Shown here one piece after another: positions 27,080-61,149 of a stretch of 64,000 nt of DNA (its first letter is position 1; the number at the start of each line of letters is the position of its first letter). The DNA lies in NCBI GenBank assembly GCA_003024785.1, contig PUQB01000112.1, positions 404,341 through 468,340 on the forward strand, read 5' to 3'. Both the position numbers and the translations under genes were made by a program. The DNA comes from Selaginella tamariscina (lineage: Eukaryota; Streptophyta; Lycopodiopsida; Selaginellales; Selaginellaceae). The notes below the pieces were generated by a model. It ran no database searches and was not told where the DNA came from. It saw nothing but the letters and a program-made list of their open reading frames with translations.

Positions 27080-27088
27080 CTTAGTGGC
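27080..27088. repeat. Left 9-bp target site duplication of the MULE
   Basis: CTTAGTGGC, identical to 51305-51313. The flanks joined across the element match the unoccupied paralogous site at 63909-63917. Confidence 0.85.
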
Positions 27089-27235
27089 GGGTTTGACATT
27101 TCCTCGAGCGCAGTTTGCCGAGCGTACGGATTTCCATCATACCGGAATATTCCATTCCGTACAGAATATTCGTTTTCATATAAAGAATATTCTGGTGCGG
27201 CGGGCGGGCAATCATGGCGGCACGGTAATGGTGTC
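27089..27235 (+). repeat. Left terminal inverted repeat of the MULE
   Basis: Begins GGG and shares with the reverse complement of the right end TCGAG.GCAG....CGAGC within the first 36 bases. Further in, both share a block with CGTACGGATTTCC, GAATATTC, and AAGAATATTCTGGTGCGGCGG. The repeat is strongly diverged with indels, as often in old MULEs. Confidence 0.7.
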
Positions 27236-27397
27236 AAAGTTTCACAAATTTGGGGGTTAATCTGACATATATATTTATATATTTATATTTATATTTATGT
27301 TTTTATTTTTTTAATATTTATATTTATAACTATAATTATATTTTTATATAAATACCGCATCAAACTAAATAAAAATTACAATAAAAACATAACTCAA

Positions 27398-30300
27398 TCA
27401 TGAAGACTCGTTTCCACCAGCCAGTGCCTCGTCGTTAATGAATGCATTGTTACGGTGTCGTGAACTTTTCTCCAAAATCTGTCTGTCGTAAACTTCGAAC
27501 TCTTCAACCATTTTCTTTGCCATCTGATTAGCAGTCTGGTAGAACAATACTGAAAACATATTAAAGTTTAAAACCAAAGAAATGATAAAACAAATCTCAC
27601 TCATCATCTGATGACTCGTATGATCTCTCTTCTGCTGACTCATCTGATGACTCGTCGTTGTGCTCCACGGACTTCTCCGTAACAACATCCTTGTCGTTTC
27701 GAGAAGGCGGATCCTGGTCTCCATCGTTGTCGCTAGCCAAAGGCAAATCCTGTGCTTCTGTTTCCATGGCCCTCTTCCACTCATCAAAAGGAGTAATCAT
27801 GGAAACAACTTGATCATCCCCACCACCTTCAGCTGCTGTAACACTTGGAATGACCTTCCTGAAGACATCTCTGGCTGCTAAAACCAGATCCTTGTTGATG
27901 TCGATTCCATAACCATGTCTCCCTGTGTGAAAAGCTGCAAGAATACTAGCACCGGTTCCCACTGTTAGATCCACGACAGTTCCACCAGGCTTTGTGAGCT
28001 TCTCCACTAGCATCGCAAACAACTTGGGAGATTTCGGGCCAATTGAAATCCTGAAAGTTACAATATTAGAACATGAGAAATAACAAACAACATTATACCA
28101 TGGGAGCTGGAAATCTTCTGGCTCATCAAAAAGAAGAGTGTAGCGAGTGTCCAAGATCTCCTTGTTCTTGGCAACCTTAGAGTAGGGGGAACCAAAAATA
28201 CACATGGCAATGATGCTTTCCTGAAAAAACATACATTAAAAAATGACATTCTCAAAAAGAAGAATTACCTTTCTAGAGAAACGGTATCCCCATGACTTTG
28301 TCGTGTGCACATAACTCATCTGCAGAAACTTTAGCTTGCAAGTTTCTGCAGTGTTCTTCAAAGCTAGAACATCATCCGGTAGCACAAACACTACCACATG
28401 GCCAGCTCTTTAATATCCCGAAAGCAAGGTTCACCAAGTTCTTCAGCAAAGCATCCGAGAACTTCGTGTATTGATCCACCATCCCGCCTGCCTCAGCAAC
28501 GCATCCGGTAGGCGGGTCGATGACAACGAGATCAACTCCCTGGATGCATTTTGGTGGAGGCTTCGCACCAAACACATGAATAGTCCAACTTGACTTGTGA
28601 CTCACGATCCAATCCTCAAGCTCCTTCAATCCTGACGGAAAAGGCCTTCCGGCTTTGAAGTACTGGACTGCAAGGTTCTCTGAATCTGCATGAATGATTT
28701 CCCAGCTTCCATTTCCCTTCTCAGGCATCACCATCCTCAACATATCATCTTCTTCCAATCCAGCCGAGATGAAGGATGGGGCTGAAGAAGAAGCTTGTCC
28801 CTTGCTGACCTTGCTCGCCGATCTAGCATACCTGATATCCATCTTCACATGGAGCTTCCTTGCAGCACTGTCGTTCTTCCATAATAGCTCTCGCCGATCA
28901 TCCTTGTGTATCTTATAGCTGGCCATCTCCCATTCGGGACAGTCACCAGGAAATCCAGCCAGAAAGGACAGTGTTCCACTGTAATACTGATATACGTAAC
29001 AACCGGCTCCACATGCTAGAATCCTTGGTAACATCCATCCACTCTTTGAAATCTTCAGGGAGTGCATCGTTTTTCCATTTTAAAAACCTGTAAAAATAGA
29101 TAAAAATCTGTAAAGAAACAAAAAAAAAACTTGCCTGAATGCCATTCTTTTTGCAGATTTTTCCAGCTCAAATAGTCGAGAGGTGAATTGTCGCACCGAA
29201 CTCCTTGTTCTCGAGCATGTTCTGGTACATATCCAACTTAATTTCATTGTGCATCTTCGTATACCATGCATGAACTCCTCTACATGCTCGACCAAAAGCT
29301 CTTTAGCTGCCTCGCGACCTGGCACGATAAAACGAATAAAAATGAAAAATATAAATATTAAATTACCTGGAACCAGTAAGTAAAGATGTGCAAAAACTTG
29401 ATGAAGTCCTTGTCAGGCCAGCCGGTGACACCTTCCTTTTGTCTTTCTCCGTCATGTTCACCAGCTTCTCAAGAACGCCACGTTCTTGAATGTGCACAAG
29501 CTTTCCCAAGGATATCAACCTTGACGTTGGAAGGAAGCTGGGACTTCGCGAGCATTTGAAGCTTCTCCAGAGTTATTTGCTTCGTTGATGGTTTGATAGT
29601 GGATATCTGTGATCGCCTTGAACCAATCTTCGCCGACCGCCGGATCAGCAATGGTGAGGAATTTGTTCATCCGAACTGTGAATGTCTTGTAAACGCTGGA
29701 GAGGATCTGAGATTCTGTCTGGTTTGGTTTTCGTTCGCAAGTTTTGTAGCGATTTGTGCTTCAGTTGATTCTGCAAAAGAAACCGAAAATCAAAAAACAA
29801 TCAAAAGAAGAAGAAAAGATTACCTCCCAAAAAATCTTCACCAATGTCGTCTTTGGATACTCGTACCAAACGTCTTCTTTTCTGTTCGATCTCCACACTT
29901 CCACAGCTTTTCTATCTTCCTCCGGCATCCCGCGAAGAACATGATCGGTAGAAAGATCTGCAGACTTCGCGCAACAATTCCGCAAGAACTGCAAGGTGTG
30001 AATGATTGTTGTAGGAACCACACGAGCAGTTGCTTTGCAAAACAAAACAACATTTATTTAGTATTTAAATAATGAAACAAACAAGTCACTTACTCATTCA
30101 ACGATTGCAAGCAGCGATTAGTCTCTTCTCCTCTTGCGCTGTAAATGCTATGAGTGTTGCATGTACACACAAAGTCCATTTCAAACATGGCTCAGAAATC
30201 GATACCACGCAAAAAATGCTGGCTTATACAAATCCGCTTCAAACTCTCTATCGACCTGTGCTTCTGACTCATTCCAGCTTCGGCGTTCGTCTGCACTCAA

Positions 30301-30936
30301 CTGTGGTCCGAAAGATAAGGTGAACACTGACGTCTCCTGGTAAAATCCTTCAGCTCTAATCCATCCAACAAGGTCTTTCACGCCGTCCTTAGTGACATTC
30401 CTCAAACATTGGTGTGGGAGCAACCTGTGAACCGAGATACGCAGAGGCTCACCAAGCTCAACTGGAACGTAGTGGTGTTGTCCTTGTAGCAATGTATCAA
30501 TATCCGTGTCATACCGAATAACAAGATCCTGAAGAAGCTTGGATGGAGCCTCAAGTGTCAACCGCTCCAGAATTGCATATGATTCGGCAACATCCTCAGG
30601 AGCATCCAGTTTCCTCTTCTTATTGAACATTTTACTACCAAGATCAATGTCCGGTACTTCCTTTGCATTACTGTGTTCTGCAGAGCTTCCTGCGATCTCC
30701 CTATTTCTAGGCATCCATTCACTCACCACAACATGTTCATCAATGACTTGCGAACTATCCACAGGTTCATTGTTCGTCGGCATTATCTCTTTGCGCTGCA
30801 GTTGTTGCTTGGCGCCTCGGCCTCCTTTCTTGCCACGAGGTTTTGGAGCCATATCTGCAAGAGCTTCTTGGACGATATGTTCTTGAAGTGTCAAAGTCTT
30901 GTATTTATCTCGCAGTCTCTTACTCTGCCTTTGCAA
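27398..30936 (-). CDS. ParB-like domain plus N6/N4 DNA methyltransferase, eight exons, transposon-borne
   Basis: Exons on the minus strand: 30936-30094, 30032-29824, 29770-29367, 29318-29135, 29087-28269, 28220-28099, 28050-27601, 27535-27398. Intron 4 has a GC-AG donor (CAG/GCAAGT). The N terminus is basic (MAPKPRGKKGGRGAKQQ; NKKRKL), suggesting nuclear import. Residues about 158-208 (LRISVHRLLPHQCLRN ... VGWIRAEGFYQETSVFTL) resemble a ParB N-terminal domain. Exon 5 holds methylase motif IV, DLVVIDPPTG, then GHVVVFVLPDDVLALKN. Exon 7 holds motif X (GPKSPKLFAMLVEKL), motif I (GGTVVDLTVGTGA) and motif II (HGYGIDIN). Order IV-X-I is the beta class (N6_N4_Mtase family), which methylates adenine N6 or cytosine N4; DPPT leaves the base uncertain. 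The tail is acidic and serine-rich. Exon 1 ends in a frame (stop at 30181) that differs from the codon-like sequence after it, and exons 2-3 also change frame, so this copy probably has a few frameshifts. Confidence 0.7.
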
Positions 30937-31446: not shown

Positions 31447-31683
31447 ATTTCCTGCTGAATTGGCAGGAAAATCTTGCTGCCCCGATGGTGCGGCCGCCGC
31501 ACCATCCTGGCGGCAGAATTCCTGCCGAATTGGGCAAGAAATCCTACCACCCAGATGGTGTGGCTGCCGCACCATTCCGACGGCAGGATTTCTTGCCCAA
31601 TTCGGCAGGAAAATCTTGCCACCCAAATGGTGCGGCCACCGCACCATCCAAGCGGCAGAAATTTCCTGCCGAATTGGGCAGGG
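31447..31683. repeat. GC-rich palindromic tandem array between the divergent MULE genes
   Basis: Three units with period 70 and 72 bp. Each carries a near-perfect palindrome with arms ATGGTGCGG and CCGCACCAT around a 3-nt centre (starting about 31485, 31555 and 31627). These alternate with four copies of a second palindrome of type CCTGCCGAATTGGGCAGG (about 31450, 31520, 31592, 31664). The array is sharply GC-rich in an AT-rich spacer and lies about 500 bp from the methylase start and 830 bp from the transposase start. Candidate binding array for an element-encoded protein. Both strands stay open through it because of the repeat; those frames are not genes. Confidence 0.85.
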
Positions 31684-32518
31684 AATGTGTGTGAGTGTGT
31701 TTGCCAAAATCGGCAATAACTCATGCTGTCGGAGGTGTGTGTGTGTGTGCACGTGCGCATGCATTTGTGAATAGAGAGAAATCCTATTGAATTCGCACAT
31801 ACATGCACAGAAATTGCTATACACATATATAAGATTTTACCTATAGCCATGTCGCCGTGACGCTCACACTAGCCTCCTGTCGCCACAAATGGAGAACAAG
31901 AGCGACCTCAAAAAAAAAAACAAAAGTGCCCTCTCTCGACAATGAAGAATGGAGAAGAAGAATGGGCGGCCCTAAATCTTTACCCTAAAATCTAACACTT
32001 AACCCTTTGACCCTTAACTATAAAACTGTGTTTAATCAAACCATACAACAGTATATACAATACTTGCTATAAATAACGTACTATATAAAAGGATACAAAT
32101 ACAAACACATATTTAAGTAAAAATTTGTATGTTAAAAAAACATATTATTATATAATTAAATAATTATTCATGTAAAAATATGTATTTATAATGTCTACAT
32201 TAGATAAAATACTTGATCAAATAAAACTATATTAATTATAATAAATAAATTACAGAATATAAACAAGTCATAAATAAATATGTCAGATGAATATAGATTA
32301 GACACACATTTATTTAAAAGACAATAAAGATTGCTCTATCTTTACGTGAAGTGCTATACTATATTAACATCTAAGATCTATACATTTCCTTGAATTAAAT
32401 ATTCACCCACGTTGAGTCATGATTATGAATTTTTGAAATGGTAATATCCGATATTTACCAAAAGATGATTAAGTAATGTTGTTGTTTTTCTGTCACGTTT
32501 GTGGTAACTGCTTGCAAA
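31684..32518. other. AT-rich spacer upstream of the MULE transposase
   Basis: No gene. A TG microsatellite lies at about 31690-31750. The remainder is strongly AT-rich and presumably contains the transposase promoter; no single TATA box can be singled out. Confidence 0.5.
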
Positions 32519-35186
32519 ATGGCCAAGATTGTTTACGACAATTTGGATCACGATGTTCCTGTGATAGATGGTGTTGGAATCATTCTTACTAATCAGATCA
32601 GAACGTTCTTTGGCATTTTTGATTGGCAAAGTGTTCATCTTTTTTAAACTTCTTCATGAGCAATCTGCTTTAAAGATCGAAATAAACGAGAACCAAGATG
32701 CTGGAGGGAAGGATAATCCAGGATATGTTTTGTTACCGGATGAAGGACCATTGTTTAAGCTTGTCGTTGCTTCTGACTCTGAATACTCAACGTTGAAGGA
32801 CCTTTTCACTTCTAATACCTGCAAAAAGGAAGAATTCTTATCGAGGGTTCCACGATCATTCATACAAATGAATTGCCTATTGCATATGATGGGGATGTCA
32901 TTTTTGAGCTCCCTCCTTCCGAATACAAATACAAAGGAATGAATCGGAAAGAGGATGACATACCTGGACAGCAGGAACGACCAGCAACTGAAATTTTCAA
33001 GCGAGGGTGTCCAGGAGCAAATGTGTTGGGAGCCTTTGCTGTATCAACCCGGATTGCCCTGCTTCTAAGGCAGGATTTCCGAACTAAACAAATGGAAAGG
33101 ATGTATTGTTTCCCCACCTTCAATCGACAAACTGGCAAAAGGATTGACATGTTTTTTCTGTAAGAAAATCCATTGTGTCTTGAAGTTTGTCATGCTGTGG
33201 CGTTCTGCATTTTCCCAGACGACATAACCAAGACTAGATTGTTTATCCACCAGGGAAAAACATTCCATCCAGTGGGTGATGGTGTTTCTACATCGAATAA
33301 AGAAGAAATGCATATGGCAGTCCAGAATGCAACAGAAAGAAACTCCCAGAGCTAGTCCAAGAATCATCGAAATGGCAGCATGTAAAGATGCTATCTTTGG
33401 TTTCTTATTAGATAATTATGAGCCTGGAAGTTGTGATAAGCTCATGGATCATTTGCAGCCATTATCAAACAATCGAAGGTACAATTAGAGTTTTACTTTG
33501 TGCTGAGCATTCTTTGATAATACCTTTGATGCAGAGTTCGTCAATGGGTAACGTCCGCAAAGAGAACTGCTGCTGAAATGCCAGAGAATATTGATGGATT
33601 ATTGGAGCTGAAACGAAGGTTGTCTATCCCATTCATCCACGTGATTCACTATCCTGGGATGAATTTCCGTGGTTCAGACGACCAGGCATTAGTTTTTAAG
33701 ATGACGGTTTCAGGGCCAGGTTTTGGAATCGATTATGTAAGGATGTGCCAACCTCCTCTTGGCCCTTTGCAGAAGAGTTGGGTTCTACTTGATCACACAC
33801 ACCGTGTTGTTGATAAGTGGATCACTCTGGCATTGCATGTTTACGACCCAAAGTAAGATGTTATCTTTTTGTTGTTTGCTTAACTCTTTGACTATTTTAT
33901 AGTGTGCGTCGATTATCCACCATTGCTTATGGTGACATGAAGAGACAAACGGCTGGGGCAGTGGAGAAGTTTTTCGTGCTATGTTGGATGTCTGTTCCGA
34001 GAAGGGAATCTACAATGTGCAGTTTGCTGGGTTTATGTCCGATGAAGCAGGAGCGATCTGGCAAGCAATCAGGAATGTGTTCTTTAATGGCCAAGAAATT
34101 CCTGGACGTGAACGGAGCTGTATCTTTCACTATGAACAAGCCATACAACGTGTGACAAGGAAGTGGGTCCCTCTTGAACATCAACAAAACATCTTCAACT
34201 TTTGAGATCATGGTCAACAGCCACATCAACAACTGATCGTGAAAATAATCTTTTCTGCTTTTGGAATGAAAATGTGAAGGATGTTGGAGTTATGCAGACA
34301 TGGTTTTCATGGTGGGAAAGACAAAGAATCATATTTCAAATGTTGTTCTTGAAAGCATGCCGGAGAATGCTGCAAGGGTTGTGCCCATGACAAACCAGTC
34401 GGAGTCTGTTCACGGAAGATGGAGGAGGGCTAAAGATTCAAAATACATTTCATTGTACCAAGCTACAATCCACAACCTGACTGAATCAGTGCGACAATGT
34501 GCTCTTGTGAAGGCTTTTAGAGATGGAAGATATAGTGGTTCCGGGCCAACTTCAGAGGAGCTCTCAGCAAGGTTCGAGAGAAGAATGTCAAATGCTAACT
34601 CAACAACACCTACAGCAAAGGTTATCATTGACTTAGTTGAAGATGTTGCTCCATCAAGCATGTAGGATACTGCTTTTGTGGCTGCCACGAATGTTGAACA
34701 TCGCACTGTGCAAAAGAAATATGGGGTCAGAGGCTGAACGATCCCACCGACTGGACATCTTCTATAGTGAATAGGTTATTCCAACACAGTGTAGACGGAA
34801 GCAACAGTTGGATTTTCCTGTTGCAGAAGAACATGAAGAATATGTTCTGGTTGAAGAACAAGATGTTACACCTGGACAATGGGCAAATTAGAAGATGTGG
34901 TGAAAGAAGTTCTGTGAAATGTCTAGCAGGCTTTCCCTCTTCGGGAGGTCAGTGGAGTGCTTGTGACAAAAAGATCAGTCCTAGTGGTAATCGAGTGGCT
35001 ACTCCTTGCTTTTTTGGAAGGATCAAATACAATGACAAAAAAACTGGTGAAGAATGCTTTCGCTCACAAATGATGTATTTTTTGTCCAACAAACATGCTT
35101 TGCAGCAGACATCCAAGACCAACTATTGTTTCTCCGCCAGCTTCTACCTCGGTTTGGAAAGTTCAAGTGGGCACGAAGTTGATAGC
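32519..35186 (+). pseudogene. MULE-type transposase gene, 5' part
   Basis: Coding-like sequence begins at an ATG at 32519 (MAKIVYDNLDHDVPVIDG). Introns are visible at about 33479-33533 and 33853-33902. The catalytic region follows MULE layout: first Asp in WVLLDHTHRV (about 33791), second Asp in FAGFMSDEAGA (about 34041), the C-x2-H motif CIFH (34119-34130), and a downstream segment TNQSESVHGRWRRAKDS (about 34390) resembling the conserved tail before the zinc finger. Frames change several times (for example the first frame stops near 32645), so this copy is degenerate. The gene is cut at 35186 by LTR element 2; the frame ending VGTKLIA runs on in phase after the target duplication. It would bind the terminal repeats and catalyse cut-and-paste transposition in the nucleus. 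Confidence 0.7.
35182..35186. repeat. Left 5-bp target duplication of LTR element 2
   Basis: ATAGC directly before the left LTR; the same five bases directly follow the right LTR at 50405-50409. Confidence 0.9.
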
Positions 35187-35745
35187 TGTCACAACCCGAT
35201 ACAGGATACAGGATTCCGGATACAGGATTTCAAATACAGGATACGGGTTACAGGATATGCCTACAGGATATTCCTACAGGATATACCTATAGGATATTCC
35301 TATAGGATATGCTACAGGATATGCCTAGAGGATAAGGGACACTATTCTTAGCTCATGACTAGATTAGACTCATGACTAGATTAGCTTGGAATTGTGAGCA
35401 TAAAAGCTCCGACCTAATTGTTGTACAATCAGTTACTATCAACACCAGTCTTCTACGATCATTCTTGTTCTTGTCTTGTTCTTGTCTTGTTCTTGCTCCT
35501 TTGCCTCCTGCTCTTGTCTCGCTCTTGGATCCTGTCCTGTTCCTATCTCGCTCCTGGATCCTGTCCTGTTCCTATCTCGCTCCTAGATCCAGTCCTGTTC
35601 CTGTCCTACTCCTGGATCCTGTCCTGCGTCTTGTCTTGCTCCTGAGTTCCTAGTTTCCTGTCTTGTTTCCTATCCTGCTCCTGAGTCAAGCCTTCCTACT
35701 CTTGGAATCCTGCTCACTTCCTGTTTCCTGGATCGTGGCTTGACA
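35187..35745 (+). repeat. 5' LTR of element 2
   Basis: Starts TGTCACAACCCGATACAGG and ends CGTGGCTTGACA. The first 150 bp is a cluster of about 14 AGGAT pentamers in CAGGAT/TAGGAT context. The second half is a run of TCCTGTCCTG and CTCCTGGATCC strings. Confidence 0.9.
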
Positions 35746-35846
35746 GTTTGATAAAGTAACTGCTTTCATAGCTCTTCGTTTCCCAGCTACTTTTTTTTCC
35801 TTGATTCTTTTCCTTCGTTTTTCTCCTTTCTTTCTTTCATAAGATC

Positions 35847-36771
35847 ATGGCTGATTTTGAGCACTTTCAACGCGAGCACCAAATGTTGCTTCATGAGCTG
35901 GCCACTTTGCGCCAAGTGGTCACCGATCTACAAGGCTCCACCCATGCGGCACATGCAGCTGCTGATGCATCCTCCAAGGCTGCTGCGCAGGCTCTCTCTC
36001 AGGCATCGGTGGTTCCTTCTTCATCGAACTTTTCTCCGGAGCCGAAGATCAGCATGCCAGAGAAGTTCAGTGGCAACCGTGCCGATTTCCAAGGTTTCCT
36101 GAATCAGATCCGCTCTTGATCCGCATGCAACCACGCCGCTACTCGACGGATGCACAAAAGGTTGGCCTTTTGGCATCCTTACTAAGTGGATCTCCACGAG
36201 CTTGGGTTGCTCCCTTGCTGGAGCGTGACGACCCATTGATGGAAGACTTTGAAGGTTTCGTGGCTGCCTTTGAAGCCTGCTTTGGAGATCCTGATAAGTA
36301 CCGTTCTGCATGCACAAAGTTACGGAGCTCACACAAGGATCCAGACCAGCTTCCGTTTATGCATCCGAATTCCAGCAATTGTGCACGAACATTCCATGGG
36401 ACGAGACTGCATTGATCGAACATTTCCGTTTTGGGCTGAGGGATGACGTGAAGGACCTTCTCCTTACGTTACCGGATGCTCAAACGTTAGCGGAGATCAT
36501 GCAACAGGCCGTTCGCTGCGACAACCGTTTGTTCGAGCGCCGTCAGGAAAAATTCCGTCAGCAGTTCCTGCCAACCAATCCTGTAGCCGTAGCACATGTT
36601 CCTACGACACCTTCTGGAGCAGTTCCTATGGAGGTTAACAATCCAAGCGTGGCCCACTTTCAACTGCTGAGAAGCAACGTCGTCGGGGTGAGAACCTATG
36701 CTTGTATTGTGGTGCAGCAGGACACAAGGTGGCGGAATGTCCTAATAAAGCCAGAAGTTCAAGACGCGTGA
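35847..36771 (+). pseudogene. Element 2 gag (fossil)
   Basis: Starts MADFEHFQREHQMLLHEL. It includes KISMPEKFSGNRADFQGFLNQ and a capsid-like part (YSTDAQKVGLLASLLSGS), then a zinc knuckle of form CMYCGAAGHKVAECP (about 36700-36740). Equivalent to the gag of element 1. Confidence 0.8.
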
Positions 36772-36831
36772 AGCCGAAGCTGAAGTTCAGTCGGAAAACT
36801 TCAATGTCCACTTCGTCTAGGAGCCGCGAAG

Positions 36832-37413
36832 TTGGACGTAGGTGCAGGCTCCATTGGTGCTGCTCATACCATTCCATCACTCAAGTTTCCTGTACACATT
36901 CGCCTCAATAATCGAGAGCTCAAGGAGTTTGCCCTGTTAGACACTGGTGCAAATGCATGTTTCATGGATGACACTTTTGCAGCTCAGCATGGCATTCCGG
37001 TGGTGAAGTTGAAGCGTGCAGTTCCTGTAGAGGTGGCCGATGGTCGTTTGATTGCTTCTGGCGCAGTTACCCACGCTACCACACCTCTCTCTTGCAATCA
37101 TGGTGCATTCAACTGTTCGATTTCCTTCAACTTGATCAAGACTCGGTCGACTCCCATCATTTTTGGCATGCCATGGTTCGTTGTTGCAAATCCGCAGATC
37201 GACTGGAGGTCTAGGACGCTCACGTTTTCCTCTCCAGCAGCCAGGATCAATCCTGTACCTTCCTGCGTGCAGGATACATCCTTGGTGTCTGAGGCAGTAC
37301 AAGCTACAGGATTGACCGTGCCTGTTCCTGTACCAGTGTTGAAGACTCCTCTCGACAGGATTCACCTCATGTCAGTTCCTCAGCACATCCGCAGGCTTTC
37401 TCCACTCCTGTAA
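36832..37413 (+). pseudogene. Element 2 retropepsin (fossil)
   Basis: Signature FALLDTGANACFMDD (about 36930-36970) and later PIIFGMPWFV. The linker that follows is rich in Pro, Val and CCTGTA-type codons. Confidence 0.8.
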
Positions 37414-37977
37414 GTTTGCGGTGTCCTGTACAGGGTTCTTCCAATCCTGTATCAGTGTCGAAGGTTCCTCCTCAACAGGATCCACCTCCTGTTGGTTCGT
37501 CAGCACATCACAGGCTCTCCTCACTCCTGTGCAACCACGGACTTCTGTACAGGATTCTTCCAATCCTGTACACTTGTCAACATCCACACAGGTTTCTCCA
37601 ATCCTGCTCTTTTTTATTACTCTGTTTCTGTTCCACCCCCAAGATCCTTCCTCTTTTTCAGTCACAGCTCCCTCCTTCCTCTCCGAGTTCTTACCACTAC
37701 CATGCATGAACTTACCACTGATCCTGCTCCTTTCCACCTTTTTGCCTTTCAAGTAACTCCTACGTCCTCTTCTACCTTTCCTGTGTCTGACTCTCCTGTT
37801 TTTCAATCTCCTTCTCCTACTCCTTTCCTTCTCCTCCTTCTTCCTACCATCCAAGTACCACGACTTTAAGGACGTTTTTGACAAGCACAAGGCTGCAGTT
37901 CTTCCTGTTCACAGGTCCTACGACTGTCCTATTGATCTTGCGAAGGAAAGACTCCACCGTTCGGACCGATTTACGCA

Positions 37978-39200
37978 TTGTCACCCACAGAGTTGGAGGT
38001 TCTTCGCCAGTACATCGAGGACAACTTGGCATCCGGCTTCATTCGTCACTCAAAGTCCCCTGCAGGAGCGCCTATCTTCTTTGTCAAGAAGAAGGATGGG
38101 AGCTTACGTTTGGTTGTGGACTACAGGGGTTTGAATCAAGCTACCATTCGGAATCGGTACCCGTTGCCATTGATCCCGGAACTTCTCGATCGGCTGCGAG
38201 GAGCAAAGGTGTTCACGAAGATCGACTTACGAGGGGCCTACAACCTTGTACGGATTCGTCCCGGCGATGAGTGGAAGACTGCCTTTCGTACAAGGTATGG
38301 ACACTTCGAGTACACGGTGATGCCTTTCGGCCTTACCAATGCCCCAGCCGTGTTCCAACACATGGTGAACGACATCTTTCGTGACTTCTTGGACCAGTTT
38401 GTGGTGATCTACCTCGACGACATTTTGATTTTCTCCAAGGACCAGGCGGCACATGACAAGCATGTACGGTTGGTTCTACAGCGGCTTCGTGAGCATGGCT
38501 TATGCGAAGTTGGAGAAGTGTTTTTTCGATAGGGATTCTGTGGAGTTCTTGGGCTACATCGTCTCTCCTGCTGGCGTTTCCATGGACATGCACAAGGTGA
38601 AGACCATCGTGGAGTGGGAGAGGCCCAAGTCTGTACGAGATGTACAATGTTTCCTTGGCTTTGCAAACTTCTACAGGCGATTCATACAGGACTTCTCCAA
38701 GCGTGTACTTCCACTCACGGAACTCACCAAGCGCACAGAGGTTTTCTCTTGGTCCGACAAGGCGGAACATGCATTCACAACACTCAAGGACACCTTCACG
38801 ACAGCTCCGATTTTAGCACATCCTGATCCTTCTCGTCCTTTCTTCGTTGAAGCAGATGCCTCGGATTTTGCAGTAGGATCCGTCCTATCGCAAGTTGGAG
38901 AGGACAAGTTGCTTCATCCTGTAGCTTTTCACTCTCGTAAGTTCCTGTCGGGGAGATCAATTACGAGATTCATGACAAGGAACTCAAGGCCATTGTGGAT
39001 TCGTTTGAGGAGTGGCGGCATTTCCTGGAAGGTGCTGCACATCCTGTACAAGTTCTTACGGATCACAAGAACCTGGAGTACTTTCAAACGGCTCGAGTTC
39101 TCAGTCGGCGACAGGCTAGGTGGGCGGAGTTCCTATCACGTTTTGACTTCGTCATCGTCTACAGGCCCGGTTTTCGGAATGGCAAGGCGGACGCATTGTC
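37978..39200 (+). pseudogene. Element 2 reverse transcriptase and RNase H (fossil)
   Basis: RT blocks [48 protein letters not shown] and [13 protein letters not shown] (about 38070-38445). RNase H follows, with FFVEADASDFAVGSVLSQ (about 38840-38895). Same chromovirus type as element 1. Confidence 0.88.
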
Positions 39201-39299
39201 TAGGCGCTCTTACCTTGCACCAAGCCCGGGCGATCCTGCATTTGACTGTCAAAGGCAAGTGTTGTTGGGTCCTGATCGATTCCGGCTTGCGGCACTGCA

Positions 39300-40345: not shown

Positions 40346-40374
40346 CTATTCCCCCCTTGAGATTTGCAGTGTCC

Positions 40375-42138
40375 TCACTGCACCTGTCCTGCACCCTCAT
40401 TCTCCTGCGGCTCCTCAGGATACTCTGTCTCATATTCCTCCTTGTACCTCACAAACTCTGCCTTTACCTTCTCCATTTCCTGTGCCATGGATGCCACCTG
40501 CAGTCGGAGACCCTGGTTCTCCATCTGCAGTCGTTGAAGTTCCTCTCCCAGCACCGTCAATAGTGCTCCTCCCTGTCGGAGTTCTTCCTGTGTCTTGACT
40601 ATCTTCTGCGCCATCGGCATAGGTTCTGAAACACTCACCGGCTTGCTCTCAAGAACCGTAGGACTAGGAGTCCTTGCCTTCACCGGTCGTGCTCCTATCC
40701 TACTAACCGTAGCCTGCATGGTGTTAATCTTCGGCATTACCACTGCCTCCACCGCTTCTGCAATCAACCTGCGAATTTCTGCTCTATCCTTCACTGTGTA
40801 GCCATATTCACAAACTGGTTGTACAATGCTTGAAGCCAACTGTGGTACATCCTGCGATGCTGAACTCACCTTTGCCGATTTGTCCAATATCTCCTGCTGC
40901 ATACGAGACAAACCTGCACCAGCTGTACCTCAACCTCCATAGGCCACTTCCTCTTGTCTGAAGGATTTCCGCCGCTTACCACCGTCCATGAAACGTCCCT
41001 GGTTCCATAAACTCCGTTGCCATTTCTTCAGCCGCCGCTTCGTAGCCATGAGTCATTCCCCCACCTACGTGATGCATAGGATACCCTCCTCGTGCAAACG
41101 TACCTCTTCCTCTTGGAGAATGCCCTGCCGCTCCACGGTTGAACCATGGCTGCCGTGTCATTGGAACACGTCCCATGCCTTCACTTGGTGATTGATCTTG
41201 CCCGTTGGTAACTGCAACAAAACTGCAGTTGCCTCCTCAACTGTTCCTGGAATATCCCCGGGAATCTCCTTTCCCTTATTCCCTAACTGCTCCGGTGACA
41301 ACTCCACCGATTTCCCTGTCTCCATTGTTGGTAGCTCCTCCTTCGTCACTCCGCAACTCAGGCGACTTCTCTTCCTTATTGTGTTCACCAGACGTTCTAT
41401 CCTGCGACTGTTCTTTCGACTTATCCTCTGCTACCTTCGTCTGAGTCGCTGGTACTTGTTCATGTGGCTTCTCTAGCTCCATTTGTACCACTTCCTCCAA
41501 CGTCTTCTTCTCCGGACGCTGTCCCACCTTCTGTGGCTCTCTGGTTTTCACGGCTTCACCCTCAAAACCTGTTCCGTGTGCTCTTCCTCCTCCTCTTCTC
41601 CTGTTCCTGTCGAATCCTCATCATCCAAATGGATGCTCTCCGTCGCGGGCTTCGTCTTTCCCTTCCGCACGGACTTCCGCATCGGCATCACTCGTGATAT
41701 CTTTTGCTTCTTCCCCGGTGGTGTCTTCATCACCTTACTGGTACTCTCCTGACGCTTCCCACTAGTCACTTCCTGTACCTTCTTTCCTATCAGCCTGTTC
41801 TGAGGTGTGAGCACCTTCTGCAACTTACTAGCATACTCCTGCTCCTCAACTTCCTCTCCACACTCCATCACATGATTCACAAGTATCTGTATCCACGCCA
41901 ATGCCATCATCGGAGACTCCTTCTGCTGTATCTCCTTCTCCTGAGCAGTAAAAACATACTCACCCAGTTTCCTGAGGAGATAACGTGCGACTCCTGCACA
42001 CTTCCCCGTCTTAAGTGCGTCATACAGCGACATAACTGTCTTTGAAGCTGTGGTGGAAGAAAGTCTGAACTCAAAAGAGTTCACCAGAAAATTACCACAA
42101 GCTCCACTTCTTCCTCCAAATCGCCACACGCAAGCCAA
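40375..42138 (-). pseudogene. Element 3 extra sense-strand coding region downstream of pol
   Basis: Two or three open segments lie between integrase and the 3' LTR, in the place where Athila and Tat elements often carry an additional gene. The segment at 42138-41548 is Lys/Glu-rich with a basic stretch (PPGKKQKISRVMPMRKSVRK). The segment at 40911-40375 looks coiled-coil (EELQRLQMENQGLRLQVASM). No envelope-like membrane segment is evident. Function not recognised. Confidence 0.6.
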
Positions 42139-42599
42139 GCTTGCTATTGTATTGCCTCCCCTCTTTCAGATAGATATCTAGATTCTTCTTATCTACCTCC
42201 AACTCTCCTTCTCCTAATGGCAGCCGAATATCTCCGCGATTGCCTTCTCATTAATCAACATCCTTCTCCCTTCGGCATATGCAACGAATTATCCCCAACC
42301 ATCTTTTCTGCCATCATGATGAAATGATAGCACTGTAGCGCATCAGGATTTACCTGCGCAGAAGGTGAGCATACTTCTCAAGACCCAATCCCTGAAGAGC
42401 GTTCTCCAGCTCGGATTGATCTCCCATCCCGTCAACATGACTGTAAAATGGCCACATGCCAGATCCTCAGCCGCCTTATGCAGAGATCGGCAATTTTTCA
42501 CCACAAGAGTATTCTTTCCTCCTGCCATATCCGCGAAGAAAGAAGCTACAAACCCTAGATCTAGGTTTGGCGCTGATTTCCAAGTGTATTGGAATATTC

Positions 42600-43732
42600 G
42601 TATAGAATATATCTCAACGTCTATAAATGATACTTCATACCTCCTCAACTTATTTATGTTTACCCTTTCCTGCATTCCGTCTCCTGTTAGGGTTTCAACA
42701 TTTACCACACCTTCCTCACTTATCTCCTTGACTTTGAATGGACCTAACCATTTCATTTTTAATTTATCCTGTGGTTTATCAACACTTCCTCTATACCACA
42801 AGACCAAATCTCCTTCTCTTATATCATGCTTCTTTCTTTTCCTATTATACCAGGCTCTCCTTCTTTTCTGAATTGCCTGTACAGTCCATAAAGCATGTAA
42901 TCTTATCTCATCCAGTTTTTCTAATCCTGTAACCTACGTTGTAAGGATTCTTGCTCACCTAAATTATGCTTTACAGCAATCCTTAAAGATGGCACAATAT
43001 ATTCAACAGGAGTTATTGCCTCAAGTCCATATGCTAACTTAAAAGGCGTCATTCCTGTTACAACCTATATAGGCTGTCCTGTAAGCCCACAAGACTTCAG
43101 GAAGTCTTTCATCCCAGTCTTTTCCATTTTCCTGAATCACTTTCCTTAAAACATTCTTAAGGACTTTATTTGTAGATTCAGCTTGACCATTCCCTTGAGG
43201 ATAATAAGGTGTAGATTTCTTATGTTTTATAACAAATTCTTCCATAAGTGTTTGAATTGTTTCATTAATAAAGTGTTTTCCTCTATCACTTATGATTTCC
43301 TTAGGAATTCCATACGCACTATAATCATATTATATATAGCACGGGCTGTATTATAAGCATCAGCTTTCCTCATAGGTTCTGCTTCTACCCACTTAGTCAT
43401 ATAATCCGTAAGTACCAGAATATATTGATTCCTTTTTGTACTCACAGGATTTATAGGTCCTATAAAATCCATTCCCCACCTTTGAAAAGGTTCTAGTGGT
43501 AGGATAGGATTTAAAGGATATACCTGTTTCTTAGGTGGTATATGTGCTCTTTGCACTTATCACATTTCCTACAGAAATCTCCTACATCCTTCCATAATGT
43601 AGGCCACCATAACCCAGCCTGTAATATTTTCCTTGCAGTTATTTCCTCTGCAAAATGCCCTCCTGCTAGACCCGCATGGGCCTCTTTCAGGATATCCATA
43701 ACCTCAAAAGGTTCCACCCAACGTCTTAACAC
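42600..43732 (-). pseudogene. Element 3 integrase (fossil)
   Basis: Zinc-binding side ([29 protein letters not shown]), core ([25 protein letters not shown]-like YYPQGNGQAESTNKVLKN), and the C-terminal GPF/Y module KMKWLGPFKVKEISEEGVVN. No chromodomain was seen. Confidence 0.8.
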
Positions 43733-43819
43733 TCCATCCTGACCGTCTTATATAACTTTCCTCCCACCAAAGAATAACGTCGTGTCCTCACGACAAATAA
43801 CTTTTTCTGATCATTAGTC

Positions 43820-45244
43820 TCATAGGATGGTGGAACTAGTCCAGTCGACAAATAAACTTTTATATCCTCCATCCATGTAGGAGGAATATGCACATGAAAC
43901 AATGTGCATCAGGAAAGTCATCCATGTACTGGATTGGAACTTCTCCTTTTTAATGCGGCTTAAATGGTCAGCCTGTTCATGCTGTCTACCAGGTTTATGT
44001 ATGATTTGAAAATCATACTCCTGTAACAGGAGAAACCATCTAGCTAAACGTCCTGTTAGGACTGGCTTATTTAAAAGATGTAACAAAGCCTTATGATCTA
44101 CAAAGATTTTGACTTTATTAGCAATAAATAGTGTCTAAATTTATGAATTGCATATACCATTCCTAAAGCTTTTTTCTGTGGTAGTATAGTTTACCTCTGC
44201 CGGTGTTAACCTGCGACTTGCATAGTAGATAGGACGGTCCTTTCCATCTTCCTGCGTCTGCGTAAGGATAGCTCCTATTGCGATGTCTGAGGCATCAACC
44301 TGCACATGAAATTCCCTGTCCCATTTAGGATTCACTAATATAGGTGCTGTTACTAAAGATTTCCTTAATGTATCAAAAGCTTCCTGACATGCAGGAGTCC
44401 AATCATAGGATTTTCCTGCCTTTAAAAGGTCAGTTAAAGGTTTGGCTTTCCTTAAAAACCTCCTTAATCTTTTAATCTGCGGTGATTGTAAGGTAAGTAT
44501 AACTTTAACCTTATCCTGATCCACCAGGATTCCTTCCTTACATACTACATGTCCTAAGAGAACTCCTGATTTTACAAAAAAATTACATTTCTCAGGATTT
44601 AAAGCAACTGATTTTGCTTACATTTCTGAAAACAATAAAGATGATTCTCTTTATCACTATATACACTAAAATCATCCATAAAAACTTTCATAAAATCCAA
44701 TAAATATTCCCTAAAGGTATCAGTTATGATCCTTTGGAAAGTAAAAGGTGCATTACATAAGCCAAATGGCATAACTTTATATGCATATGCACCCCATGGA
44801 CTTATAAAAGCTGTTTTATGTTGGTCCTCCGGAGCTACTAGAATCTGATTATATCCTGAGAATCCATCCATAAAGGAATACATCTCATGTCCGGCCACAC
44901 TATCCAACATTTCTTCTGTAAATGGGATAGGAAAAACATCCTTCTTTGTGGCATCATTTAACTTTTATAGTTTACACATACTCTCAACTTTCCATTTTTT
45001 TAGGAACAATCACAAGTGGTGATAACCATTGTGCACCCTGTATAGGATAAATAAAACCTACACTTAACAGCTTATCTATCTCCTCCTTCACAAGCTGTGC
45101 ATAATTAGGATTCATCCTATATGCTCTCTGTTTCACAGGCTCACTTCCTGGTAATAATTGTATAGTGTGTGTACACAATTCAGGAGGTATGCCTTTAAGA
45201 TCTTTATAGGACCAGGCAAAAACATCCTGATATTTTTGAAGCAA
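43820..45244 (-). pseudogene. Element 3 reverse transcriptase and RNase H (fossil)
   Basis: RT blocks KEEIDKLLSVGFIYPIQ, MYSFMDGFSGYNQI, MPFGLCNAPFTFQR and VFMDDFSVYS. RNase H follows (FHVQVDASDIAIGAILTQ, RPIYYASRRLTPAE, NKPVLTGRLARW). Confidence 0.85.
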
Positions 45245-45576
45245 TTCAATCCTTTTTCCGGAATTCTTTATCTAATTCCTGAGCAATGAATAGGTTTTTA
45301 GGTTCATTTTCTGTACCTATATTCACTTGCTGCAAAGGATCTGTAGTATACACATATGTATACTCTGCAGGTTGTTCCTGTAAATCAATCTCATATGGGA
45401 TTGCCTTATAGAACTTTTCCTGCAATCCGGGCCTATCTTCTTCCTTCTGCTAACAGTTTTCTTTCCTTTCAGCACTACGTTTAAGTCTATATCTGTCAGG
45501 ACTTTTAAGTCAGGATATGCTTTCAGGATTTCTACTTCTTCCTGATCGTCTAAGCCATTAAACCAGTCATATCCTT

Positions 45577-46125
45577 CTAAAATAAGGGTCTATTTTCCTT
45601 TTTAACATACCTTTTTGTATGATTGTATATCACCGGTTTTCCTTCTCCTTCTCCCAGCGTCATCTTTCCTGTTCCCCAATCCTGTATAACTTTAGCAGTT
45701 TTCAGCCAAGGCCTACCTAATAACATAGTATATACAGTATCTTTTCCTTCCATTTGGAGGACAATAAGGGACACTTTATATTTAAGACCCTTTATAGATA
45801 TAGTCACTCCTCTCACTATACCTGTAGGCTTGACACTTCTCTGGTCTGCCATTTTTAAATTAAAAGGAGCAGGCTCAATGGGTCCTAAACCCATTTTCTT
45901 ACAAGCATGTTCCTCAATAAAATTAACTCCTGAGCCTCCATCTATAAGGACTTCTTTTATCTTGTTTTTACCAATATATACAGTAATGCTGGGCACATAC
46001 CCATCATAATCACCTTCTTTTTCATAATGTTTTTCTACTCGGTGAATTTCATTTCCTGTATATGCAGGTAAGGATTTTGGAACAATGTTCAACATTTCCA
46101 AGATTTTTTTTAATATATGGGGCAA
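45577..46125 (-). pseudogene. Element 3 protease (fossil)
   Basis: Aspartic protease pattern VLIDGGSGVNFIEE and later MLLGRPWLK. The catalytic triplet reads DGG-S rather than DTG/DSG, a variant found in Athila/Tat proteases. Confidence 0.75.
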
Positions 46126-46528
46126 TATGTATTAATTGTCCCAACGTGATTGTAATTTCTTGGCTCAATGCACTTTGAGCCATTGATTCTGCCACGTCAT
46201 CCTGAATCCGTTTCACAGGAATGCTCTGTTTTCTAGGGTTACTCTGTTTTACAGGAATATTCTTTTTCTCTTGAATATTCTTCCCTAAAATAGAATCAGT
46301 TATTTTTAGATCTTTAGGTATATCCGTCGGTTGTGTATCATCATCCGAGATATACTCAGGGAGATCTCGTTCTTGGAGATGAGTTCATCTCTCCCATTGT
46401 TTGCGTACTATCCCGCAATGGATACACAATTTCCTTCTTCTGCTGGAAGGTATTCCTGTTTCTGACATATATTTCTTTTTGTACAGATTACTGCTCTCAC
46501 GGCAGGATGGTTTTCAGCTCATTCTCGT

Positions 46529-48160
46529 TCACATCAATGAACCGAGCTCCAAGCTCTCTCTTAGGAGCATTGTTTGAGGTGGAAGGCTGATTCTTAGGAC
46601 AATTTGGAGAAATATGTCCTTTCTCTCCACATGTATAACAAGTAAGATTAATAGAATTCCTTCCTTGTACTTGTCTTTGTCTATAGTTATTTTGATCTCC
46701 ATAACTTTCTTTTCTTGGATATCTTTCTGTCCTCTGTAGGACGTCTCCTTCCTTCCCATATTAGGCTTATATGGTGGAGCATATCTAGTTTGATTCCCTT
46801 CATACAGCCTATCATCTCCTCCTGTATAAAGGAACATTCCTTCGTTATCAAAAGGATTCCTATTTCTTCCTTCTTCCCAACTCCCAGGCTGTTCCTCATA
46901 ATAGAGCTTCCTATTCCGAGATGGGAATGTGGTAACAGGTGGTTGTCTCACAAAACGGCCTGTTATACCAGCCTTCCTTTCTTCCTTCTTTCTCCTTTCT
47001 TTTTCCACACGTGCCACATTTTGATTAATAAAATACTTACAGTCTTTTGCCGAATGTCCTTCTTTATCACATATTTGACATTTTGGCAACTGTAGTCTAC
47101 ACTCATCCTTAGTATGTCCAGGATTTTTACACTTGGCACACCATACTTTGGCATCTAATTCCTTATACACAGGATTACCTTTCAAGGACTTAACTAGCTG
47201 TAATAACATTCTCTCATCAGCCTTATAATCCCGAACTTTGATAGGTTCATCCTCATCATCTGAACTATCCTCCTTTCTCCTTGAGGATTTTATCTTTCCT
47301 TCTGCTATGTTTTCTATTTGTCTCCTCTTCTTCTCATAATCTTTAAGATGCTTTACAAGATCTTTCCTGTCTACTTCCTCAATTGTCATTGCATAATGCC
47401 TATATGGCTTCTGCAATCCTTGCTTATACCATTGAAGCAAAGCTTCTTCCTTAACATATAGTGAGCATTTCTTTTCATGCTTTTTAAAACGGTGTGTATA
47501 TTCCTCTAGAGTTTCAGTTTTTCCTTGTAGGATATTTCTGAGCTTCTCTAAGTGCTCTTCAGGCAACTCTTCCTTTTTAAAGTATTCTTTAAAAGCTTCT
47601 GTAACTTTCTCATAATCTTCTCTCACATCTTTCTCCAACTCATAATACCAATCAGATGCATTTCCTTTTAATGTGTGAGGAAATATAAGCAACTTATCTG
47701 CATTGCTTACTTTATACAACTTTACAACTTCCTCAAACTGCAATAAATGTCTTTTAGGATTTTCCTTCTTTCCTGCGGAAAATATTGGGAACATCAATGT
47801 GCCTCCCAACATTCCGGGGAAAAGTGTCATATTAGACATACTCGGTGGGTTTTCTCTACCACCTTCCTCCTCACCAAGAGGGGAATTTCCAGGAGATACT
47901 CCTCCTGGTCTAATAGGAAATCCTGTTCTCCGAGGAGTTCCTTCCAACTCCTCTTCTCCTGCAGTTTGATAGTCACCGTATTGTATATCCTCCACACCTT
48001 TAGCAGCACTTTCTCCTATCTGATCAATGAGTTTTATAAGAGCTTCTTGCCTATTAGCAAGCTCTATTTGCTCAGCTCGGGCAGCCTCTCTCTCGGCCTG
48101 CCTATTATCTCTCTCTCTTGCTAGAGACGAGTTAGGATTATGTTGCCTCCAAGGCTCCAT
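46529..48160 (-). pseudogene. Element 3 gag (fossil, long open frame)
   Basis: A 543-codon open frame beginning MEPWRQHNPNSSLARERD. It has a capsid-like domain (FPIFSAGKKENPKRHLLQFEE; EEYTHRFKKHEKKC) and two adjacent zinc knuckles (WCAKCKNPGHTKDECRLQ, CQICDKEGHSAKDCK; about 46990-47140). It lies just inside the 5' LTR. Confidence 0.85.
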
Positions 48161-48288
48161 CCATCATCATATATATACACACTTCTTTTTCACTTAAGCT
48201 CTACTTCTCTAGAGCTATATCACTTCTCACTTAGGAATTCAACAAATTCCTCCACAACAATGGCGAAATCCCTCCGTGGTCGCCATGT

Positions 48289-48806
48289 GTTAACATACAA
48301 AACTTTCCTGTGTGCAGAAAACACTGTTCACAGCGCAGGAAAAGCTTTGCAAGTTAAAGTGTAGGGATTTCGTCCAATAGAGAGCTCTAGATATATACTT
48401 ATTTCGTCTCTAAGGTCAAGGATAGGATTTTGCTTTGGCCATTGCCATGTATAAGCATTCACAATACCCATAAATATGCACTTGCATTACTATATGAATA
48501 CAAAGAGATAGCAAGTGTGGAGACTTACTTCTCTCCCAAGATACTCTCTCTCTCATGCATTGCTCTCCATAGCCTTCATAGCCTTCATAGTCTCTCTCTC
48601 CTTGCCCTTCCTTGCCCTAACCGAATCCTGTCCTCCTCCAACCGTCATAACTGTCTGCTTCCTGCAACCGTAGGATCCTTCCTACCCTGTAGGATTTATC
48701 CTGTACACAGGATATTTCCTACTACTACTTTCCTACAAGTTATTCCTCCACCGTAGGAAAGTCCTATGTATGCAGTTCCTACATGCTATATTTTGGGCCT
48801 CTAACA
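48289..48806 (-). repeat. 5' LTR of element 3
   Basis: Partner of 39807-40345 with the same ends. It differs mainly by a missing segment of about 20 bp and scattered substitutions. Confidence 0.88.
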
Positions 48807-49811
48807 ATCTTTCACCAAGCAGGCTCATTTCCTACCCTGTAACAAGACAAGTTACAGATCAGACAACTGCCGAGTTGGTGATCCATGAGGTGTCCGACAT
48901 CATGGTCTTCCTGAGAGCATTGTTCCGATCGAGGTCCACTCATGTCCAAGTTTTGGCGAGAGCTTCTTCGGAGTCTACAGGTTAAAGCGGATCTTTCTTC
49001 AGAATCACCCACAAACCGATGGGCAGTCCGAACGCACAATTCAGACCTTAGACAGTATCTTTATTGCTTCATCAGTTACAGCAGGACACTAGTTGGACCT
49101 TCTTCCTATGGCGGAGTTTGCCTACAACAACTCCGTTCACGCATCTACAGGACAGACACCTTTCTTTGCTCTTACAAGCCACCATCCACGTTTTGACTTC
49201 GCTCCTCCCGCTTCTCCTTCTTCCACTCCTGCAGTACAGGATCGTCTTCAGCATCTTCGGCAAGTACAGGATGATCTCCAGATTCACCTTCAACAGGCAC
49301 AGGAACGGTACAAGCATCATGCTGATGCTCACCGTCAGCCGGCACCTGCATACAAGATTTGGTGATCTCGTGTGGCTTCTTCGTCGACCTTCGCATCAAC
49401 AGGCCTTCTTCTAAGTTGGATTTTCAACGATTGGCCCTTACAGGATCGTGTGGAGGTAAATCCTGTAGTTTTCCGACTCGATTACCATCCACGGTGAAAC
49501 TTTATCCTATTTTCACACCTCCTTGTTGGAGCCGTATCATCCTTCTTCTCTTCCTGGTCGTGCTTCTTCTCCTCCCCCTCCTGTGATCATTGCTGGTAAC
49601 CTGAGTACGAAGTTGCAGCCATCCTTGATTCTCGTCTTCATCCGCCAACTTCAATACTTGGTGGATTGGAAAGGTTATTTGCCTACCGATCGCACTTGGG
49701 AACCTGCATCCAACTTACTCCTGCTTCTTCCAAAGTTGCTGCCTTTCATCAGCATTATCCTGCTAAACCAGGTCCTAAGACTCGTGGAACTCGTCCTTAG
49801 GGAGAAGGTGC
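48807..49811 (+). pseudogene. Element 2 integrase remainder and chromodomain-like tail (fossil)
   Basis: Resumes the integrase of element 2 directly after element 3. It includes DLLPMAEFAYNNSVHASTGQ (about 49095-49150), a basic tail, and the chromodomain-like VDWKGYLPTDRTWEPASNL (about 49660-49725). A chromodomain at the integrase end defines chromoviruses and guides insertion to modified chromatin. Confidence 0.75.
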
Positions 49812-50404
49812 TGTCACAACCCGATACAGGATACAGGATTCCGGATATAGGATACAGGATGCAGGATTTCGAATACAGGATACGGGTTACAGGATATGCC
49901 TACAGGATTCCTACAGGATATACCTATAGGATATTCCTATAGATATGCTTTAGGATATGCTACAGGATATGCCTAAAGGATAAGGGACACTATTCTTAGC
50001 TCATGACTAGATTAGACTCATGACTAGATTAGCTTTGGGAGTGAGCATAAAAGCTCCGACCTAATTGTTGTACAATCAGTTATTATCAACACCAGTCTTT
50101 CTACGATCATTCTTGTTCTTGTCTTGTTCTTGTCTTGTTCTTGTTTTGTCTTACTCCTTTGGCCTCCTGCTCTTGTCTCGCTCCTGGATCCTGTTTTTGT
50201 TCCTATCTCGTTCTTGGATCCTATCCTGTTCCTATCTCGCTCCTAGATCCAGTCCTGTTCCTGTCCTACTCCTGGATCCTGTCCTGCGTCTTGTCTTGCT
50301 CCTGAGTTCCTAGTTCCTATCTTGTTTCCTATCTTGCTCCTGAGTCAAGCCTTCCTACTCTTGGAATCCTGCTCACTTCCTGTTTCCTGGATCGTGGCTT
50401 GACA
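49812..50404 (+). repeat. 3' LTR of element 2
   Basis: Partner of 35187-35745 with the same ends and the same AGGAT-dense start; slightly longer through small insertions. Confidence 0.9.
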
Positions 50405-50937
50405 ATAGCAATGGAGATCAATGATCTGGCAAGATCAGGTTTTATGCTAGCTGGGCTTCCTTCAGCTCATGCAGGAGTGCCAGGTTTTTTCAACACCTCA
50501 TGTTCCTTCAGTTCCTGTTGGAGTCACTGGATTTTCAAACCCCTGCACAATTTCGTGGACCTCCTGTTCCTGCAAGTGGTCGTGCAACAAGAACACCTTT
50601 AGGGATGTCTAAGAAACAACAGGTAAGTTTTGAAGCATGTTTGACGTTGGGAGCATATGTCGCAAAGTTGACATGGTTGATCCTCCAACATGCATTCGCT
50701 TCAGAGTATGTGACAACGACCAACATCTGCTTGGGTTGTCATTTGCAGCGCACCATCTGTTCATGCTCGGAGTTCTGCAATGGTCGTCAGTGGGTGCCTT
50801 GCAAACATATGTATTTTGTTTACAAGCGTGTACTGGGAACTAATCCTCGAGTTGTCAAGCATTTGCAACGTCGTACACTTGCACCCCGTGAACTAAGTTC
50901 TTTATTGATGCTACCAAGGAACCTCATCCCTCTTTAG
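50405..50937 (+). pseudogene. MULE-type transposase gene, 3' part with SWIM zinc finger
   Basis: Resumes the transposase interrupted at 35186. The duplicated ATAGC (50405-50409) is followed by MEINDLARSGFMLAGLP. The frame at 50500-50937 holds a SWIM-type finger, CSCSEFCNGRQWVPCKH (about 50764-50814), with the C-x-C ... C-x-H spacing typical of the C-terminal zinc finger of MULE transposases. It ends at TAG 50935-50937. A frame change lies between the first segment and the finger segment. Confidence 0.75.
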
Positions 50938-51304
50938 TGTGTTTTGGTTTGTTTTAAAATAGCTTCGGTTTTATATTTGTTATTTCAAACTTATAATTTT
51001 TCAATATAAATGTTAATGGTAATTTTATGCTTAGCATATTTTTAAGTAATTTAACGTATATTTTCCTTTAATACAACAAAAAATATACTACCATATTTTG
51101 TATGCCACCGCCGCACTAGAATATCTAGAATATTCTTGAAAATTTTGGAAGGTCCAATTGTGTGTACACTTGGCAGTACGAAAAATTTCCGTACAGAATA
51201 TTCGAGGATATCTAGACGGAAATCGTACGGAACAACGAAATATTCAAGAATATTCGTAATCTAGGTCAAGCTCGTTGACCTGCACTCGAATTTCGCCGTG
51301 CCCC
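50938..51304 (-). repeat. MULE 3' spacer and right terminal inverted repeat
   Basis: About 150 bp of AT-rich spacer, then the right terminal region (about 51095-51304). Read on the minus strand it starts GGGGCACGG and shares TCGAG.GCAG....CGAGC and the internal TACGATTTCC / GAATATTCTGTACGGAA / AGAATATTCTAG..GTGCGGCGG blocks with the left end. The repeated GAATATTC strings are also locally palindromic. Confidence 0.7.
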
Positions 51305-51313
51305 CTTAGTGGC
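51305..51313. repeat. Right 9-bp target site duplication of the MULE
   Basis: CTTAGTGGC, identical to 27080-27088; followed by sequence matching the complement of 63785-63908. Confidence 0.85.
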
Positions 51314-53830: not shown

Positions 53831-53838
53831 TACACACT

Positions 53839-61143: not shown

Positions 61144-61149
61144 AGTGTG

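Follow-up and report, generated by a model that had tools for sequence, protein, structure and literature searches.

Does a plant transposon carry, and keep under selection, a DNA methyltransferase of bacterial type? The question is raised by positions 27089–51304 of a 64,000-nucleotide stretch of Selaginella tamariscina DNA (contig PUQB01000112.1; hereafter the window), which an earlier note had described as a Mutator-like element (MULE) bearing a transposase gene and, on the other strand, a ParB-like/methyltransferase gene. The reading that we favour, with a probability of about 0.62, is that the locus belongs to a recently active family of ~8.9-kb Mutator-like elements in which the transposase is accompanied by an accessory protein, a ParB/DndB-like permuted amino-methyltransferase, that would act on the element's own DNA. 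What is new here, as far as the DNA itself can tell, is the purifying selection on the methyltransferase gene together with an array of palindromes close to the ends of the element.

The 9-bp sequence CTTAGTGGC adjoins the element on both sides, at 27080–27088 and 51305–51313, as an exact pair with no third occurrence in the window. Taken alone this repeat is weak evidence, since at least two matches arose somewhere in 7 of 100 shuffles; it is backed by a natural empty site, L029, a paralogous version of the flanking DNA ~12.6 kb to the right of the element. There the two flanks, once joined, align without interruption (identity in 1649 of 1900 columns), and the target is present once, as TTTAGTGGG. 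The diverged terminal inverted repeats reported in the earlier note appear to be real though degenerate: their local score is 82, whereas plain shuffling of the right end, 300 times over, gave at most 60, and the two ends have in common the 10-bp TCGAGCGCAG, read by eye, and a 23-bp block, the remainder having diverged. Among the scored left-end matches elsewhere in the genome (n=39), all start within 8 bases of 27089. Because of these start positions and the continuous empty-site alignment, 27089–51304 is shown, on sequence evidence, to be a single insertion flanked by a duplicated 9-bp target. The earlier description thus stands for the insertion and its flanking duplication, but the copy in the window is itself broken, as set out below.

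The genome searched was the window's own, 300.7 Mb in 1391 contigs. With 26900–27400 as the left-end query, 40 of 166 candidate matches were scored, as were 40 of 132 candidates for the right end. Sequences were taken for 20 of the 39 other left-end matches, and 18 of them form an end-mapped set; outside it are L010, which has further insertions within it, and L021, which is cut by a contig end. All 18 have both ends, measure 8.0–9.05 kb and show the same order and ends as the window element, which is ~9.0 kb long when its nested retrotransposon is subtracted. L017 apart, they are 98.9–100% identical to one another, and the window copy is 97.2–97.8% identical to them. The copies differ in many places by small insertions and deletions, for which errors of assembly may be to blame. 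The 9-bp duplication is exact in eight of the 18 copies, imperfect or of another length, by eye, in five, and absent in five; some copies may be rearranged or misassembled. Six diverged loci were also found: four retain long parts of both genes, one has the left half only and one is internally deleted, and among these old loci the target duplication is exact in L030. The family therefore shows itself, on the evidence of its many near-identical ~8.9-kb copies, as a recently amplified DNA transposon.

Several individual copies deserve separate mention. L017 was considered as a diverged copy on account of its apparent 80% identity, and was rejected as such when the cause proved to be an assembly gap. 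In L012 the repeat shared by the flanks is ~18 bp instead of 9 bp. L014 and L015, on different contigs, have the same right flank, which suggests a duplication, an allele or an assembly chimera. The internally deleted locus, L035, joins element positions 1–1944 to 7713–8944 and keeps both ends and a 9-bp duplication with one mismatch; its deletion may be older or younger than its insertion.

A methyltransferase match lies within 2.5 kb of 40 of 40 scored left ends and within 30 kb of 38 of 40 scored right ends (35 of them within 8.5 kb), counts that measure proximity only and in which the best-scored ends may favour complete copies; one of the two right ends without a match is close to a contig start. 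The earlier note had allowed for two other outcomes, that copies with the same ends never contain the methylase or that the gene is a single-copy host gene. The first is contradicted by these counts and the second by a genome search with the exon 5 protein, which gave 147 matches (140 scored of 1043 candidates) ranging from 100% down to 53% identity and falling into 127 distinct loci once those within 3 kb were merged. In position, then, the two genes are shown to be linked in the copies examined.

In intact copies the methyltransferase gene, on the minus strand and transcribed divergently from the transposase, is predicted to have the eight exons that the earlier note had proposed; they encode 1092 residues, with six GT-AG introns, a GC-AG intron 4 and consistent phase. 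The frame is open in 8 of the 18 end-mapped copies, seven of which encode an identical protein and one a protein of 1091 residues. In the window, exon 1 (30094–30931) holds the ParB/DndB-like region and is followed by exon 2 (29824–30034), exon 3 (29367–29770) and exon 4 (29135–29318), after which comes the GC-AG intron. Exon 5 (28269–29087) holds motif IV, VDLVVIDPPTG; exon 6 lies at 28099–28220, exon 7 (27601–28050) contains motif I, VVDLTVGTG, and an acidic tail, and exon 8 (27398–27549) encodes the C-terminal end and the stop.

PF01555 matches the intact protein with 34 bits against a curated cut-off of 26.7 (E 3.8e-8), and matches were also obtained to phrog_67 (7.6e-11, over residues 640–1023) and PADLOC Mad2 (2.5e-9). 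Motif IV (residue 762) precedes motif I (residue 917), the permuted beta order, and a phrog_498 match over residues 761–962 covers both. The N6/N4 methylase call and the beta-class motif arrangement of the earlier note are thereby borne out. The exon 1 region, with a WDGNHRR motif at residue 257, matches DndB when scanned alone (0.0007, 19.2 bits against a cut-off of 29.1); other DndB profiles gave 0.0012 (PADLOC) and 0.017 (NCBIfam, far under its cut-off). DndB is a ParB-fold protein, and the ParB-like claim holds in so far as this relative is matched, but not at the level of a curated score. The predicted architecture is a ParB/DndB-like region followed by a permuted N6/N4 amino-methyltransferase domain, which may be catalytic.

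The transposase, of three exons and 1037 residues, is open in 3 of the 18 end-mapped copies, and both genes are open in one copy. On the plus strand of the window, exon 1 (32519–33478) is broken, exon 2 (33535–33852) carries the first D, in LLDHTHR, and exon 3 (33903–50937), interrupted by the nested retrotransposons, carries MSDEAGA, CIFH, TNQSESVHG and a SWIM-like CSC...CKH. The catalytic region alone matches PF10551 (MULE) with E 0.028 and 15.3 bits against a cut-off of 27.6, spanning 2–96 of 99 positions. PF04434 (SWIM) reaches E 5.1, under its cut-off, at the expected place after the catalytic domain; CSC...CKH itself was read by eye. The MULE transposase of the earlier note, with D, D, C-x2-H and a SWIM finger, is thus recognizable by eye in its motif order, but its Pfam scores stay below the cut-offs. 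We assign the element to the MULEs because of the 9-bp duplications, the by-eye order D, D, C-x2-H, E and the CSC...CKH that accompanies it. No reverse transcriptase was found as a gene of the element: the long reading frames of L026 (8.9 kb) are those of the transposase and the methyltransferase, and the window's retrotransposon is one nested in the element.

Selection was assessed by comparing nine old copies (L010, L023, the window copy and L030–L035) with L013 as the reference, a transition weight of 4 being assumed for the neutral replacement expectation. Methyltransferase changes private to one copy replaced an amino acid in 270 of 372 cases, matching the neutral 0.73. Among shared changes the replacing fraction was 75 of 145 for those in at least two copies, 28 of 67 (0.42) for at least three and 13 of 31 for at least four; with C>T and G>A excluded, 30 of 77 changes shared by two were replacing. 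The corresponding values for the transposase were 261 of 348 private, then 67 of 116, 17 of 37 and 7 of 16 shared. Comparison of changes shared by at least three copies with private ones gave, by Fisher's test, p 1.7e-6 for the methyltransferase and p 4e-4 for the transposase. Nonsense changes in the methyltransferase numbered 2 of 145 shared versus 24 of 372 private. As raw fractions only, replacement was lower among shared than private changes in all five of five parts of the protein, and for the methyltransferase region alone the values were 19 of 36 versus 76 of 108. Recurrent deamination at shared sites should work against this result. Because shared changes replace amino acids less often than neutral private ones, as in the transposase, the methyltransferase is shown by this test to be a selected cargo, apparently under purifying constraint like that of the transposase.

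Four less-decayed copies (L026, L013, L009 and L023) have eight occurrences each of the palindrome GAATATTC, near the ends only. In L026 the left 180 bp contain three, the right 260 bp five and the interior none, and either terminal count was reached by 0 of 500 shuffles, the motif having been chosen after the ends were inspected. The window copy keeps six: three in the left terminal region (27089–27268), a degenerate inverted repeat, at 27145, 27164 and 27185, and three in the right terminal region (51045–51304) at 51128, 51196 and 51248, where L026 has five. Three more lie inside the nested retrotransposon.

The earlier note had suggested that the methylase might mark or protect the element, counter host silencing or guide the transposase. 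In our reading the methyltransferase is an accessory gene that probably derives from bacteria or phages. Its protein would bind, or bind and modify, DNA of the element itself, with the terminal palindromes as the likeliest target, and this would favour expression or transposition, either because the ends are marked for the transposase or because host silencing is escaped. The transposon may in this way use DNA marking for its own spread.

A number of observations weigh against this reading. For the whole transposase Pfam returned no MULE or SWIM match even with E allowed to reach 1, and these two domain calls, like the ParB-like one, fall under the curated cut-offs. The target duplication is absent in the five end-mapped copies already mentioned. 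In amino-methyltransferases the motif IV consensus is [DNS]PP followed by Y, F or W. Motif IV of the intact protein, DPPT, departs from it, and catalysis is uncertain because the aromatic residue usual in these enzymes is missing. The consensus can also be drawn from PMC8885841. To the choice of GAATATTC after inspection must be added that the six diverged loci hold 1 to 6 palindromes, several of these loci being incomplete and one occurrence in L035 lying outside the element, and that GAATATTC may be a transposase site without a link to the methyltransferase.

This last point leads to the alternative that survives best: GAATATTC is a site for the transposase and nothing else, and the targets of the methyltransferase lie elsewhere, perhaps in host chromatin across the genome or in element DNA that is being replicated. 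Subterminal repeats bound by the transposase are common among DNA transposons, and what the sequence shows of the palindrome is its position; we regard this account as possible, though somewhat unlikely.

It is unlikely, in our estimate, that the protein is catalytically inactive, its fold retained as a DNA-binding or S-adenosylmethionine-binding adaptor like Arabidopsis VANC or MURB, an accessory protein of maize. The DPPT of the intact protein would suit such a role, and among the nine old copies the last residue of motif IV is T in seven, I in L034 and unreadable in L023. The ParB-like region could bind DNA, with palindrome arrays near the ends, much as VANC recognizes short motifs that lie outside the coding parts of its own elements (PMC13317346). 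Nevertheless, motif I is intact in the 1092-residue protein, and the lower replacement fraction among shared changes extends to the methyltransferase region. Motif I can be read in eight of the old relics: four have it unchanged, L010 shows no change in the part that is legible, and L030, L033 and L034 have it altered, a state that says little because those copies have decayed.

The most specific version of the mechanism is a self-recognition epigenetic system of prokaryotic design at work in a plant nucleus, in which the protein would bind the GAATATTC arrays of both ends and amino-methylate them, so that self ends are told apart from other DNA and kept active or licensed for transposition; we hold it to be distinctly doubtful. 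MULEs often carry fragments of host genes, and the methyltransferase might be a passive captured fragment of the Pack-MULE type, carried by chance. This is highly improbable given the complete eight-exon frame, the intact protein that 7 of 18 copies encode in identical form, the gene's presence beside every scored left end and its deficit of shared nonsense changes, and the selection test largely refutes a chance passenger gene. The notion that unrelated insertions piled up here by chance, or that the locus is a product of faulty assembly, to which the two retroelements splitting the window copy might lend colour, is refuted by the empty site and the 18 end-mapped copies with the same order and ends, and its probability is negligible.

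The copy in the window is, to judge from its lesions, an old, broken relic split by nested long terminal repeat (LTR) retrotransposons, with frameshifts in both genes. In its methyltransferase gene, exon 1 has lost 70 bp at 30191/30192, in the core of the ParB-like region, which removes VWDGNHRRVAL, and the alignment lacks bases of the start codon; the exon 2 acceptor reads TTGCAA for TTGCAG, exon 3 is frameshifted and exon 5 has small deletions. An LTR retrotransposon at 35187–50404, foreign to the transposon family, sits in the transposase gene, with LTRs at ~35187–35745 and 49812–50404 and the target duplication ATAGC; inside it is a second retroelement, its repeats ~8.48 kb apart. Relative to the young majority, G>A and C>T make up 103 of 203 substitutions in the window copy, as would be expected if its DNA had been methylated and silenced. 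Between the two divergent genes, at 31462–31686, lies a palindromic minisatellite with a unit of ~70 bp, the number of units varying among copies: none in L013 and L026, one in L009 and L023, two in L025 and three in the window copy. Elsewhere in the window, gene copies ~84–92% similar to one another lie at 4737–7478, 23701–26259, 53814–56304 and 60555–61168; two of the four are inverted and flank the element on either side, and all are presumably plant alpha-dioxygenase genes.

A search of 5.8 billion proteins with the window read-through, the intact methyltransferase and the transposase (at most 8000 candidates scored per query) yielded nothing at the limit set; at the same limit no relative was found in phages, IMG/VR or plasmids, and no PDB sequence matched with E under 0.1. 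Bacterial genomes contributed one locus, in which the match is confined to 31 residues about motif I. A prokaryotic protein combining a ParB-like region with an amino-methyltransferase was found in none of the protein, phage, IMG/VR, plasmid and bacterial-genome searches. The best profile matches of the two halves of the protein remain the phage and defence amino-methyltransferases (phrog_67, PADLOC Mad2) and DndB.

Among published elements, VANDAL MULEs with VANC, an anti-silencing protein that removes DNA methylation from its own elements, and MULEs with Ulp1 (KIU) share with ours a 9-bp duplication, a conserved accessory gene and short non-coding motifs, and their transposase has the SWIM finger of which ours shows a candidate (PMC6446971; PMC13317346, where VANC and Ulp1 are MULE accessory genes); the accessory here is a ParB-like/amino-methyltransferase. 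Extra domains listed for MULEs include SET, OTU, FAR1 and PMD, and the main text of the paper that lists them has no word starting with 'methyl' (PMC6446971). DNA methyltransferases are encoded by retrotransposons of Symbiodinium and Klebsormidium and, as Dam-like N6A enzymes, by DIRS elements, and marine-virus DNA transposons with such an enzyme are mentioned (PMC5890265). These too are eukaryotic transposable elements encoding DNA methyltransferases, but the enzymes of the retroelements are of the cytosine C5 or Dam-like type, whereas here a DNA transposon carries a permuted N6/N4 enzyme with a ParB-like region. The N4CMT of bdelloid rotifers is likewise a bacterial-type permuted N6_N4_MTase (PF01555) with introns in a eukaryote; in contrast to ours, which is transposon-borne, with DPPT and a ParB-like region, it belongs to the host, has SPPY and a chromodomain and acts against transposons (PMC8885841). 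In titles and abstract openings, with subscription papers outside the scope, no report of a methyltransferase in a MULE was found. A MULE with a ParB-like/amino-methyltransferase accessory gene thus appears to be a new combination.

Transposons with DNA-modifying enzymes of their own are known mainly from retroelements, and purposeful N6-methyladenine (6mA) or N4-methylcytosine (4mC) in plant genomes is disputed. A plant DNA transposon that is young, present in many copies and equipped with an amino-methyltransferase of bacterial type under selection would directly test purposeful 6mA/4mC in plants, and would also test whether MULEs could have, next to VANC, a second means of dealing with host silencing.

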